Origin: a virus
Direction: 5' to 3' (one strand)
DNA: 64,000 nucleotides
Virus record (IMG/VR): IMGVR_UViG_3300026484_000157
Span: 1-64,000 of that record
Every line of letters starts with the position of its first letter. Position 1 is the first letter of the stretch. The notes beneath the pieces are model-generated. The model searched no databases, was not told the origin of the DNA, and saw only the letters and a program-made list of their open reading frames with translations. The translations under genes were made by a program, and so were the position numbers. Shown in pieces: positions 2,507 to 18,050 of the stretch.

Positions 2507-3346
2507 ATGGAAAGATATATACCGATGCACACAATTCACGATGAATGTGAAAATGACAAATATTCAATACAACATAAGGTGTTCAAACACTCATTTAGAT
2601 CTCAGATGGATGGAGAATTCATGGGTCAGAATGATGGCGATATAATAGCTGTTCTTGTTGATAAAACTAAAGATGAAATTGTTATGAGTGACTCTGTTAT
2701 GGAGAAGAAAACAAATCTTGATTTTTTGAACAATGCCAAAGGAAATATATTAGTAGCTGGTTTAGGTCTAGGTATGATTCTCATCGCTCTAAAGGATAAA
2801 AAGACTGTTGAAAAGATTACTGTTGTTGAAATCGATCAAAATCTAATTGACCTCATATCCCCAACATTGTCTAAACATATAAACATAGATATAATAAATC
2901 AAGATATCAATGATTTTGATCCAAAAGAGAAATATGACACTATTTACTGTGATATATGGAACAATATAGAGGGTGATAATCTAGAAGAAATGACAATCTT
3001 ATATAACAAACTGAAAGGGTCACTATCAGAAGATGGATGGATAAGTAACTGGAGAATGGCTGATACAATAAAATTATCAGACTGCGATACCAAACATAAT
3101 CCAATAAATATGATATCTGAGGATGAAGCGATTCAGGTGATAGTTGATACGGCTATAGAAACAGGAGATACACCACAAAATCTAATTGATTTATATGAAG
3201 AATCAAAACATAGTTATACAAATTTAGTAAAAGAATTAGATAGCTCAATATTTGTATGTGAACATTGTGGGTGGACAATGGATATAAACGAACAAGATTC
3301 TGATGGAATTTGTAGCTCTTGTTCTGACGACTACATGGAGGAGTAA
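2507..3346 (+). CDS. SAM-dependent methyltransferase with C-terminal zinc ribbon
   Basis: Class I Rossmann methyltransferase. The glycine-rich SAM-binding motif is VAGLGLGM (83-90), an acidic end of strand 2 is VVEID (106-110), and an acidic strand is YDTIYCDIW (143-151). Overall it resembles spermidine-synthase-like enzymes. The last 30 residues hold C251-x2-C254 and C269-x2-C272, a zinc ribbon that could position the enzyme on a nucleic acid or protein. There is no DPPY/NPPY motif, so an adenine-N6 or cytosine-N4 DNA methylase is unlikely. Substrate unknown. The start is supported by AAGGACATAAC just upstream. Confidence 0.75.
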   Translation: MERYIPMHTIHDECENDKYSIQHKVFKHSFRSQMDGEFMGQNDGDIIAVLVDKTKDEIVMSDSVMEKKTNLDFLNNAKGNILVAGLGLGMILIALKDKKTVEKITVVEIDQNLIDLISPTLSKHINIDIINQDINDFDPKEKYDTIYCDIWNNIEGDNLEEMTILYNKLKGSLSEDGWISNWRMADTIKLSDCDTKHNPINMISEDEAIQVIVDTAIETGDTPQNLIDLYEESKHSYTNLVKELDSSIFVCEHCGWTMDINEQDSDGICSSCSDDYMEE

Positions 3347-5677: not shown

Positions 5678-6172
5678 ATGGAAAAGTTATCAACTAAATT
5701 AAAAAATTATAAAGATCTACCTTTTGAAGAAAAGATGGATCTAGTCGAAGACATTACTGCTACTATAATCTCTCAATATGGAGAATTATTAGATAGTGTA
5801 GATGGGGAAGATAGAAGTTTTGCAATCGGTTCAAAAGGATATAATGAAGCAGTAAAATCAATGACTTCACTATTAGGGCAATTGTCTAAATTGAACATTT
5901 ACAATCGTGAATCTGCTATGAAAGATAATATAGACTTCAATCATCCAAAGATTCAGAAAGGTATGTATTTCTTAATTGAAGCAGTAATTGATTCTATGAA
6001 AGAATCAGACATTGATGATACTCAAATCGCAGTTTTTTCAAACACTCTTTCTTTAAAATTAGTCGGATTCGAGGATCAATTAAATTCAACACTTAAAAAA
6101 CTGGCTTCAACTCTTGTTGATACTGCCAAAAACCCACTTATTGAAAAGATACTAAATGGTGAGGCAAGATAA
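5678..6172 (+). CDS. Unrecognised helical protein, possible small-terminase position
   Basis: A 164-residue, all-helical, acidic protein. In T4 and many other phages a small helical DNA-recognition subunit (gp16) is encoded just before the large terminase. This gene lies one gene upstream of the large subunit and is a positional candidate. I see no helix-turn-helix, so the assignment is weak. Its stop shares the A of TAATG with the next start codon. Confidence 0.5.
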   Translation: MEKLSTKLKNYKDLPFEEKMDLVEDITATIISQYGELLDSVDGEDRSFAIGSKGYNEAVKSMTSLLGQLSKLNIYNRESAMKDNIDFNHPKIQKGMYFLIEAVIDSMKESDIDDTQIAVFSNTLSLKLVGFEDQLNSTLKKLASTLVDTAKNPLIEKILNGEAR

Positions 6173-6999
6173 TGAATATTATTGCAGGTATAGTAAATTC
6201 TAATATCAAGATTGGCGACTATAAGATTATCAATAATTCACTATTTAAAAACGAATTATTGATAGGTACTGCATCATTCACTTGGTATAAATATCCAAGA
6301 AAAACATTGAGAATAACCTCATTTAAAATGTCTACTGCAAATAAAAACAAAGGTCATTATAAAGCATTTATAAAAGATCTTATAAATTATAGTGATAAAA
6401 ATAACATAATGACCACATTCCACTCTGTTGCAAGAGTTGGTACTGCAAAACAATCAGAGCATAAAATATTGTTATCTCTAGGTTATAAGCATAATTTTGG
6501 TAAAACAAAAATAGCTGAAATTCAAGATAGTTACTATAGATATCCATCTAAGACTACTCAGGCAATTGAGGGATTATATGCAGCAGTAACATTTACCGAT
6601 TTGACTACATCACAATTGCTTAATATAACTAAATCTATCCCTAATGGAGAGAAAGAGTTCCATTCGACTCTATTATATAGTAGAGTCTCATTGCCAACAT
6701 ATGTTCCACAAGGAGAGATATTTCCAGTCTGGGAAGCTCCATCTAGCTTATATTCTCTTGAAAAATGGATAGATACCGATGGTAAAACAATATTAGTGCT
6801 TACTTATTCTTGTAAAAATTTAGAGGATAGACATTCATATTTAATGAACAAACATAATGCAACTTATGACTTCGATGAATATAAACCACATATAACACTT
6901 TCGTATGATATCCCAGAAGAGTTTAACATAGATAATATAAACATAGAAGAATTAGAAATTCAAATATCAAATGAGTATGCTGAAAAACTAGAATTATAG
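6172..6999 (+). CDS. GNAT-like domain fused to Acb1-like 2H phosphoesterase
   Basis: Two parts are visible. Residues about 30-110 resemble a GNAT acyltransferase fold, with a strand and helix around NKNKGHYKAFIKDL (57-70) and a closing HKILLSLGYKHN (97-108). Residues about 132-270 resemble a 2H phosphoesterase: GLYAAV (134-139), first H-x-T motif FHSTLLYSR (H164, T166) and second motif KPHITLSYD (H240, T242). The 76-residue spacing of the two motifs and the flanking GLY and TLLYSR phrases fit the Acb1 group, phage enzymes that degrade cyclic nucleotide signals of CBASS immunity (T4 57B is the type example). T4 Acb1 is a single domain of about 150 residues, so the N-terminal extension is unusual. 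Immune evasion is inferred; a tRNA/RNA 2H phosphoesterase is the alternative. Confidence 0.6.
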   Translation: MNIIAGIVNSNIKIGDYKIINNSLFKNELLIGTASFTWYKYPRKTLRITSFKMSTANKNKGHYKAFIKDLINYSDKNNIMTTFHSVARVGTAKQSEHKILLSLGYKHNFGKTKIAEIQDSYYRYPSKTTQAIEGLYAAVTFTDLTTSQLLNITKSIPNGEKEFHSTLLYSRVSLPTYVPQGEIFPVWEAPSSLYSLEKWIDTDGKTILVLTYSCKNLEDRHSYLMNKHNATYDFDEYKPHITLSYDIPEEFNIDNINIEELEIQISNEYAEKLEL

Positions 7000-7023: not shown

Positions 7024-8787
7024 ATGGCAATATCAACTCTTGTATCGAAGATTTCAAAGTCCACATCAATAGTAGATCCAATAACTTTTGCACAATCTCC
7101 AAATTTCTTGGGGATTAACTTATTCCCACTACAAAAGTTCATCATTAAGATTGTATATGGTATGGAATTGGATGATAACTTAAAAGTTCCAATAGTAATT
7201 AAAGATAAGTTCAACGAGGTAGTTCTTGAAGAATTTTATTCTGAAACTGAATTCTTATATTATTTATATGACAACGACTATATTAACAGTTTAGAATTCG
7301 ATGAATCAATTATTGAGATGGTACTAGTGATTGGTCGTAGGGGAACCAAAACTACAATATCATCAATCATAACAGCATATACATTATATTTGCTACTAAT
7401 GAAAGAATCACCTCATGAATATTTAGGAGTGATTAAACAATCAGAAGTTGGGATTGCTATCTGTTCTAATAATAAGGATAATGCATCAAGACAACTGCGA
7501 GAGGTTTCTGCCTTTATTTATGGGAGCAAATGGTTCAAGCCATTTCTTGTGTCAAAAGAACCTGCAGCAGAGGGCTTCTTCTTAAAATCATCTGAACAAA
7601 TTTCAAACCCAGAAAGTAAGATTGGTCACATATTTGTATCAGTATTTGCAGCATCTCCATCAGTTAGGGGTGCATCTAACTTAATAGTTATAATGGATGA
7701 GTATGCCCACTTCATCGATTCTGAAGTTTCAACTAAATCTAAACCACTAGATAAATTATTATATGAGGCACTTACTCCATCAGTTTCTGGTTTCTCTGAT
7801 CCTGATGGTAAGCCATTAGGTAGAGCAATGATAATCACATCACCTAATGGTAAGAAGGGTGAGGTATGGAAGAGAAAGAAAACATCTAGGGACGATAAAT
7901 CTCAGTTGTTCATGAATATTCCATCGTGGTGGATAAATGCAAACTTAGCATCAGCATTTCTAAGAAAGATGTATAATGAATCTGAAGCATCATTTTGGCA
8001 GGAATATGGTGCTAAATTTGTTGAGAAAGAATCTGGATGGATTGAAAATATGGCTAAGTTCAGATCTATGAGAGATTTAGCCCTTAGCAATTCTAAAAAC
8101 AATGGTACAATGAAGAAAAGATACTATGTCGGAGTCGATCTAGCTCTATCAGGGGATGGAACAGCAATCTCTGTAATATCTTATAGCAAAAATCGTGGAA
8201 GAACATTAGAAGATGAAAAACATAATGAACATATCACAAATGAAGGTGTTTATGCGATTGAATATGTTTGGTATAAACTACCAGCCAAAGGTCAGATATT
8301 ATCAGTTAATGAAATAATAGTAGAACTCCTAAGTATAAAAGAACAATTTAATGTTGTAGGTTGGGCATTTGACCAATGGGCATATGATATGTTCGATCAA
8401 TGGCTACAAGAAAAGAATATTAAGCTTAAGAATAAGATGAAGGTATCATCTACACAAGAGTCGAATTCAAACATGGCAAGATTCTTTAAGGCATTGATGA
8501 ATGAAGGGAAGATAGTACTTCCAAATGACGATGATTTATTCTATGAGCTAGAGGCTTTAAAAGAAACATTGTCAGGTAAACATATTAAAGTTGAAAATAC
8601 ATCAGGTCATGATGATAGATTTACTTCAATATTAAGAGCACTTTGGATCGCTCAATCGGATCCAAGAAGAGGTGATATAAATGAGAATAGGATTACTACT
8701 CACAGACAGTATGAAACATTTAAGAAAACTCATCATAAACCACTTCAACAATTAAGAAATAGAACACCTAAAAAACGGAGAAGATAA
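7024..8787 (+). CDS. Terminase large subunit
   Basis: DNA-packaging motor with ATPase and headful-nuclease domains, 587 residues. ATPase: a deviant P-loop VIGRRGTKTT (102-111), Walker B LIVIMDEYAHF (220-230, D225/E226) and coupling motif IITSPNG (270-276). RNase H-like nuclease: YYVGVDLALSGDGT (367-380, D372), then FDQWAYD and a late acidic GHDDRFTS segment. The length matches T4 gp17-type terminases. The start is fixed by the AAGGACTCGGAAACC leader. The stop shares its last base with the portal start. Confidence 0.93.
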   Translation: MAISTLVSKISKSTSIVDPITFAQSPNFLGINLFPLQKFIIKIVYGMELDDNLKVPIVIKDKFNEVVLEEFYSETEFLYYLYDNDYINSLEFDESIIEMVLVIGRRGTKTTISSIITAYTLYLLLMKESPHEYLGVIKQSEVGIAICSNNKDNASRQLREVSAFIYGSKWFKPFLVSKEPAAEGFFLKSSEQISNPESKIGHIFVSVFAASPSVRGASNLIVIMDEYAHFIDSEVSTKSKPLDKLLYEALTPSVSGFSDPDGKPLGRAMIITSPNGKKGEVWKRKKTSRDDKSQLFMNIPSWWINANLASAFLRKMYNESEASFWQEYGAKFVEKESGWIENMAKFRSMRDLALSNSKNNGTMKKRYYVGVDLALSGDGTAISVISYSKNRGRTLEDEKHNEHITNEGVYAIEYVWYKLPAKGQILSVNEIIVELLSIKEQFNVVGWAFDQWAYDMFDQWLQEKNIKLKNKMKVSSTQESNSNMARFFKALMNEGKIVLPNDDDLFYELEALKETLSGKHIKVENTSGHDDRFTSILRALWIAQSDPRRGDINENRITTHRQYETFKKTHHKPLQQLRNRTPKKRRR

Positions 8788-16469: not shown

Positions 16470-16667
16470 ATGCTAAGAGAACTTATTTCTGCATTCATAC
16501 CTATACGAATGGGTATGATAAATGACACACCCTCTTATTGGCGAAAGAGATTATTTCACAAGGGGTACCAGATCTTATTAAAAAGATCTGGCGAAAACGA
16601 GTATTATATACATCATGGAAACTATGATACACTAACTGAAGTTTTCGAGGAGATTGTAGCAAAATGA
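16470..16667 (+). CDS. Unrecognised small protein
   Basis: 65 residues, basic, preceded by AAGGATAAAAAG. It overlaps the DUF488 gene by 4 bases, indicating an operon. No motif recognised. Confidence 0.5.
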   Translation: MLRELISAFIPIRMGMINDTPSYWRKRLFHKGYQILLKRSGENEYYIHHGNYDTLTEVFEEIVAK

Positions 16668-17047
16668 TATACACTTCTTATTATGGCAATTGGAGAAATT
16701 TTCCAGAGGATTACAAATTGGTTTCTACCTCAGTACACAATCCTGATGGTCATAAATATTTGAAGGCTAAACCATTAAGACCACCTTATGATCTATGGAA
16801 AGCCTATAAATATGAGAATCTATCATGGGAAGATTATACAACATGGTATACTCGTGAAGTATTAGACAAACTAAGCCCAGATAAAATAGCAAAGAAATTA
16901 GATGGATCTATACTATTGTGCTTCTGTCATGCTAAATCCAATTGCCATCGACATCTTCTGAGAGAATGGATGATTAAACATGGTATCAATGTACAAGAAT
17001 TAAAATATAAAGGAATGAAAAATGAAGAAATATCACAAGAGAATTAA
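16664..17047 (+). CDS. DUF488-family protein
   Basis: 127 residues. The signature LLCFCHAKSNCHRHLLREW (84-102), with C86, C88, C94 and H95, matches the C-terminal CF..-CHR-LL pattern of DUF488/YeaO-like proteins. Members are found in bacteria and phages and their biochemical role is not settled. The N-terminal TSYYGNW replaces the usual TIGHS-type opening. Confidence 0.65.
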   Translation: MIYTSYYGNWRNFPEDYKLVSTSVHNPDGHKYLKAKPLRPPYDLWKAYKYENLSWEDYTTWYTREVLDKLSPDKIAKKLDGSILLCFCHAKSNCHRHLLREWMIKHGINVQELKYKGMKNEEISQEN

Positions 17048-17267: not shown

Positions 17268-18050
17268 ATGAATAAATTTCAAAATATATTAGATAGGGCA
17301 ATGCATATTGAAATAAAGGCAGACCCATACACTGGAGATTTTCACTCTGCTAATACAAGAGCAGTATTTAGTGACGAATTCCACTCAAAGTTCATATCAC
17401 CAATAAAAGAAGATCAGATAAAGGCAAAATCGCTAAGAGCAATTGGTAAAGGTCTTGGGTTATCATTATTATATCAAGCATCAAGAAGATCTGCAGGTTA
17501 TACACTATTTTACAATTCAAATGTTGGGGATAGCCCAGAAGAGGCACAAAAATTTGCTGATAAATGGTATAATGGTGTTCCAAACTTTACAAAATCACTA
17601 AAGGACAGAATTGCTGATGGTCATGCCAAAGGATATACTACTAATGCATTTGGTAGAATTAGATATATTCCAAAGATTAATATTGAAGGGTATGAGAATC
17701 GCAAAACAAAAGAATATAACGAAAGAATTGCTACTAACTTTGCAGTACAAGGTCTTGGCTCTGAACAGATCAAATTGGGACTAAAAGAAGTTAACAATTT
17801 TGCTGAAAATAATCAATTAAATTTACATCAAGGCAATCTATCAAATATCAAGGATTTCTATACTAGAATTTTGTCTATTGATGTTGCAAATCCACATCTA
17901 GATGAATTTATGTCGATAGTAGACACATTTGAAGATGGCAACTGTAAGTTGTTGGTATCTGATGGGAATGAACTACAACAAGAATACTCAAGAAGTTTGA
18001 GAATAACGGCAAATATAATCAATGAATTTGGTCTTAAAATTTTATGGTAA
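17268..18050 (+). CDS. Family A DNA polymerase fragment (fingers/palm part)
   Basis: The product matches the middle of the PolA polymerase domain. DFHSANTRAVF (24-34) equals the DIHTATA segment after motif A. The O helix keeps R57, K61 and Y69 at R-x3-K-x7-Y spacing, but the usual Phe is L65. TNAFGRIRYIP (125-135) and AVQGLGSEQIKLGL (159-172) equal the LFGRRRYLP and QGTAADIIK blocks. The frame starts after motif A, so the first catalytic aspartate is missing, and no clear VHDE motif C follows; LLVSDGNEL near residue 230 is the nearest match. The gene has its own start and ribosome leader. It may be one subunit of a split polymerase or an inactive remnant. Confidence 0.75.
   Translation: MNKFQNILDRAMHIEIKADPYTGDFHSANTRAVFSDEFHSKFISPIKEDQIKAKSLRAIGKGLGLSLLYQASRRSAGYTLFYNSNVGDSPEEAQKFADKWYNGVPNFTKSLKDRIADGHAKGYTTNAFGRIRYIPKINIEGYENRKTKEYNERIATNFAVQGLGSEQIKLGLKEVNNFAENNQLNLHQGNLSNIKDFYTRILSIDVANPHLDEFMSIVDTFEDGNCKLLVSDGNELQQEYSRSLRITANIINEFGLKILW

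Follow-up and report, generated by a model that had tools for sequence, protein, structure and literature searches.

An Acb1-family viral protein with a GNAT-like N-terminal domain and without the C-terminal lid

In a viral genome fragment, a small open reading frame that lies directly in front of the gene for the large terminase subunit raises the question whether it encodes an anti-CBASS enzyme of the Acb1 family and, if so, how the additional, acetyltransferase-like sequence at its N-terminus should be viewed. The window that we analyzed is a stretch of 64,000 nucleotides (positions 1 to 64,000 of IMG/VR record IMGVR_UViG_3300026484_000157), and the source record is a viral contig of 126 kb that carries contractile-tail-like and ribonucleotide reductase genes. 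A preliminary description, made from the sequence alone, had proposed a two-domain protein in which a GNAT-like N-terminus precedes an Acb1-like domain with two HxT motifs. The features that are relevant to the question are the following, with the residue numbers referring to the protein encoded at 6172-6999.

5678..6172, +, upstream ORF, 164 aa, putative protein; overlap between its stop and the start codon of the next ORF
6172..6999, +, two-domain ORF (GNAT-like N-terminal, Acb1 C-terminal), 275 aa, TAG stop included
6199..6546, +, GNAT-like core, residues ~10-125 (PHROG 14082, AlphaFold2 models, PDB fold matches)
6343..6360, +, position of GNAT motif A, K58-N-K-G-H-Y63 (alignment with Cheesy gp39, RRKGHA)
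6568..6996, +, Acb1 2H phosphoesterase domain, residues 133-275 (PF23474, PHROG 755, PDB 7t26)
6661..6669, +, first HxT motif, H164-S-T166, equivalent to T4 H44/T46 (sequence, alignment with relatives)
6889..6897, +, second HxT motif, H240-I-T242, equivalent to T4 H113/T115 (sequence, alignment with relatives)
6982..6999, +, protein end, E271-K-L-E-L275-stop; the adenine-contact Glu (T4 E141) is kept and lid 146-152 is absent
7024..8787, +, terminase large subunit (PHROG 9, 3e-14; Tunturi_5 TerL, 1e-31)

The Acb1 half

The Pfam model of Acb1 (PF23474) matches residues 133-274 with 95.4 bits, where the curated cut-off is 27 (E=3.3e-27), and PHROG 755, i.e. the T4 57B family that is labelled 'RNA ligase' in PHROG, matches the same half at 6e-32. 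At the sequence level, the top PDB match of the protein is FBB1 Acb1 (7t26, 1e-12). The structure was modelled with AlphaFold2 and the model was fold-searched against PDB and BFVD. FBB1 Acb1 (7t26) again came first in PDB (E=5e-9, TM 0.77 by target), followed by the phosphodiesterase of phage BCSR5, and the best BFVD match is a viral protein annotated as Acb1. NCBIfam and PADLOC gave no meaningful match to the protein. Best matches to unrelated LigT-type or RNA 2H enzymes would, according to the preliminary description, have spoken against its reading, yet the outcome was the opposite: the LigT-type 2',3'-cyclic phosphodiesterases (PDB 5ldk) have the 2H fold and the two HxT motifs in common with the viral protein, but they appear in the same PDB fold search at a far weaker E=3e-3, and there is no sequence match.

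Both HxT motifs (H164/T166 and H240/T242) were found together with the flanking stretches GLYAAV, TLLYS and KPHITLSY, as had been described. With the residue numbering and the functional residues of T4 Acb1 taken from PMC9117128, eight of the nine catalytic or base-contacting residues proved to be kept: T4 Y12, H44, T46 and W74 align with Y136, H164, T166 and W200, and T4 F107, H113, T115 and E141 with F234, H240, T242 and E271. The ninth, Trp147 of the lid, is missing. For comparison, relatives of Acb1 were collected from IMG/VR scans (three queries), one GTDB genome scan and phage records; the scans were based on conserved peptide patterns with the best 80 matches retained for each, and yielded 99 distinct Acb1 ORFs. 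The two histidines of the motifs are present in 98 and 99 of the 99 distinct relatives listed, and the same numbers hold for the two threonines (or serines). The motifs are thus not a chance occurrence, given this conservation and the Pfam score, and the assignment of the C-terminal half to the Acb1 family is firm.

The T4 (gp57B, NP_049750.1) and FBB1 (PDB 7t26, 7t27) representatives of family PF23474 are phage anti-CBASS enzymes with which the viral protein shares the 2H fold, the HxT/HxT tetrad, the base-stacking aromatic residues and the adenine-contacting glutamate. Nevertheless, there are clear differences. T4 and FBB1 Acb1 are stand-alone proteins whose C-terminus forms a lid with Trp147, whereas the viral Acb1 domain is preceded by a GNAT-like domain of 130 residues and lacks the lid, and its gene adjoins that of the large terminase subunit (TerL) instead of 57A/ipI.

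A single reading frame with a GNAT-like first half

The ORF occupies exactly positions 6172-6999 (+), as proposed, and encodes 275 aa. Its start codon overlaps with the stop of the preceding ORF (TAATG), and the two are probably translationally coupled. With the long genes of the phage as a reference, the codon usage of the two halves scores 0.29 and 0.27, against 0.05 and -0.18 for the +1-frame controls, which implies that the fusion constitutes one coding frame. Within the sequence of the ORF there is no ATG, GTG or TTG near the domain border that could start the Acb1 half alone. Separate translation of that half was therefore ruled out, and the locus should be viewed as encoding one two-domain protein.

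The gene for TerL starts 24 bases downstream, and the adjacency to the terminase that had been reported is therefore correct, but it implies no functional link. The named relatives of this TerL are distant (24-28% identity). In two of the TerL relatives (L096 and L098) Acb1 is absent in front of TerL, from which it follows that the ORF was inserted here or is a gene specific to this lineage; a comparison of the upstream ORF with the gene before TerL in the same two revealed no detectable relationship.

Several other genes in the window deserve mention. A DnaX-like clamp-loader ATPase is encoded by the phage at 317-1456 (+; DNA_pol3_delta2, E=6e-20), and a SAM-dependent methyltransferase-like protein with a Cys-rich C-terminus at 2507-3346 (+), upstream of the two-domain ORF, matches RrnaAD, Spermine_synth and Methyltransf_25. 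A DUF488 protein of the N3a subclade (127 aa, 16664-17047, +) is encoded near genes for a dCMP deaminase-like protein and a polymerase. An ORF of 260 aa at 17268-18050 (+) covers positions 199-326 of the 381 in the Pfam model of family A DNA polymerases and is the only match to this family in the 126 kb record, where the rest of the domain was not found; it thus seems that the polymerase is divided or shortened, unless part of the record is missing.

In the case of the N-terminal half, no Pfam acetyltransferase model produced a match. An indirect link is provided by PHROG 14082, which matches weakly (E=2e-4) and of which one member, gp39 of Arthrobacter phage Cheesy, lies just above the cut-off of Pfam Acetyltransf_1. 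The alignment with this short GNAT extends over motif A-alpha3-beta5-alpha4; Cheesy gp39 is, however, a stand-alone protein of 104 aa with a regular motif A (RRKGHA) and without an Acb1 domain. Modelled alone, essentially from a single sequence, the N-terminal part has a mean pLDDT of 57 (71 for the whole protein), and all 50 of its best PDB fold matches are GNATs, at E ~1e-3 to 1e-2. The modelled core consists of beta2-beta3-beta4-alpha3-beta5, with alpha4 appearing in the full-length model, whereas the alpha1-alpha2 region is absent from the AlphaFold2 models and the last 25 residues of the core (~10-125) were not modelled with confidence. The acetyl-CoA-binding motif A of GNATs has the consensus [QR]xxGx[GA]. 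In the viral protein it reads KNKGHY, in which the glycine is kept but lysine takes the first and tyrosine the last position. Because of this degeneracy we refer to the half as GNAT-like rather than as a GNAT acetyltransferase, and acetyltransferase activity is doubtful. The earlier suggestion of a GNAT-like N-terminus is thus backed by the fold matches and the weak sequence link; the assignment is reasonable at the level of the fold, but uncertain with respect to enzyme activity.

Relatives of the N-terminal half were found neither in IMG/VR by peptide patterns nor in nine viral records with Acb1 or a related terminase (a search without positive control), a phage collection gave just weak matches to Arthrobacter acetyltransferases (E 4-10), and a PDB profile search with a two-sequence N-terminal alignment yielded nothing useful. 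Among the 99 distinct Acb1 relatives listed, the GNAT fusion occurs once, in the ORF studied here, although rarer fusions could have been missed by scans that used peptide patterns and the best 80 matches each. Two other listed ORFs have a long N-terminal partner, which in both cases is a portal domain (PF06381 + PF23474, at L101:1534-3492 in a Sphingobium genome and at L183:2522-4372 in Synechococcus phage Ssp-JY39), and the next longest extension amounts to ~70 residues. These portal proteins likewise carry Acb1 at the C-terminus and are encoded in the terminase/portal region, but they keep the lid Trp and have a portal as partner where our protein, which lacks the PF06381 domain before Acb1, has the GNAT-like domain. 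The portal fusions suggest that Acb1 can be carried in the virion; fusions of 2H domains to portal or MuF proteins are already reported in PMC5512222. The polyvalent phage proteins treated there are similarly phage conflict proteins in which GNAT and 2H domains occur, but they are large and composed of many domains, and a bare GNAT-Acb1 pair is not described in the passages considered. Among the papers searched for Acb1 or anti-CBASS in combination with acetyltransferase or GNAT, none was a relevant report of a GNAT-Acb1 protein. Both parts are familiar, and the protein is distinguished by their pairing, which these searches did not find elsewhere, together with the missing lid.

The rarity of the pairing also fits an accidental origin, in which a GNAT gene became joined to acb1 through loss of the stop between them and the two domains remained independent, the GNAT without a role in immune evasion. 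The single occurrence among the 99 distinct relatives listed, the degenerate motif A and the very short linker (residues ~125-133) agree with such an event, but there is no sign of decay, as the frame is open throughout and the N-terminal half equals the long genes in the strength of its codon usage. We consider an accidental fusion possible but on balance unlikely; as regards the Acb1 half, it is compatible with the function proposed below.

The missing lid

A feature that the preliminary description had missed is the absence of the lid from the Acb1 half. The lid of FBB1 Acb1 comprises residues 145-152, which cover the bound ligand, with W147 stacked on a base (PMC9117128). The viral ORF stops where residue 145 would be, and lid residues 146-152, including Trp147, are consequently missing. 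Readthrough of the TAG codon, or an alternative code, was considered as a way to restore the lid and rejected, since the downstream frame (TYKKDSET) contains no Trp; the use of TAG as an ordinary stop within the window (7 of 53 long ORFs) also counts against an alternative code.

At the position of the lid aromatic, 80 of the 99 distinct relatives listed have Trp, 4 have Tyr or Phe, and 15 have no aromatic residue (among them L039, L051, L054, L081, L082, L093, L104 and L105). Loss of the lid is thus tolerated in the Acb1 family, and for the same reason the lid was not treated as defining membership. Judged by these alignments, Acb1 proteins without the lid appear to form a minority in which the viral protein is not unique. 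Without the lid, its ligand pocket should be more open.

The missing Trp could alternatively be a sign that the domain has drifted to another 2H substrate, such as RNA ends with a 2',3'-cyclic phosphate, 2'-5' oligoadenylate or another nucleotide signal. Action on RNA or 2'-5' oligoadenylate has been proposed earlier for phage 2H domains (PMC5512222), and LigT-type structures are found among the distant fold matches. Nevertheless, the base stackers Y136, W200 and F234 and the adenine-contacting E271 are kept, the E-value of Acb1 is about six orders of magnitude better than that of the LigT folds, and the lack of a lid aromatic in ~15 of the 99 relatives listed shows that the family tolerates the loss. 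A drift in substrate is in our view rather improbable.

Proposed function and meaning for the family

By analogy with the T4 and FBB1 enzymes (PMC9117128), from which we infer the reaction and the biological role of the Acb1 half, the protein is probably an Acb1-type enzyme by which the phage evades immunity; it would cleave the nucleotide signals of CBASS, and a GNAT-like part has been added to it. The same study examined nine additional acb1 genes, all of which gave cleavage of 3'3'-cGAMP and cAAA. The homology, the fold and the conserved active-site and adenine-pocket residues belong to the observed properties of the Acb1 half. The half would bind adenosine-containing cyclic di- or trinucleotides of CBASS, with the bases stacking on Y136, W200 and F234 and with E271 in contact with the adenine. 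H164 and H240, together with T166 and T242, would then catalyze a metal-independent cleavage 3' of adenosine via a cyclic-phosphate intermediate, and the effectors of CBASS would stay inactive after the loss of their signal. The GNAT-like half would most likely contribute protein binding, dimerization or targeting, or may separately acetylate a host protein, although full acetyltransferase activity is uncertain in view of the degenerate motif A. Points that count against this reading as a whole are the missing lid with Trp147 and a GNAT part that has no close relative and a low-to-middling model confidence.

A bifunctional evasion enzyme, in which the GNAT part would acetylate a host defence or transcription protein, or bind it through CoA, while the lid-less Acb1 part degrades the CBASS signal and the GNAT domain perhaps takes the place of the lid, has a slim chance of being correct. 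That the protein acts mainly as a host-protein acetyltransferase, in the way that phiKMV Rac acetylates RNA polymerase alpha, with the Acb1 half as a passenger, for which the GNAT core as seen by fold and the proposal (PMC7824862) that phage GNATs target the RNA polymerase or the ribosomal proteins of the host could be adduced, has very little likelihood in view of the degenerate last position of motif A (Y63, not G/A), the absent alpha1-alpha2 and the intact Acb1 active site.

For an immune-evasion protein of the kind that we favor, the combination of a GNAT-like domain and Acb1 is an added domain architecture for the Acb1 family. In case the GNAT half is active, two counter-defence or host-takeover activities would be combined in one small phage protein. 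The missing lid, finally, raises a question that extends to all Acb1 enzymes, namely whether the C-terminal lid with Trp147 is needed, considering that about one in seven of the relatives listed lacks the aromatic residue.
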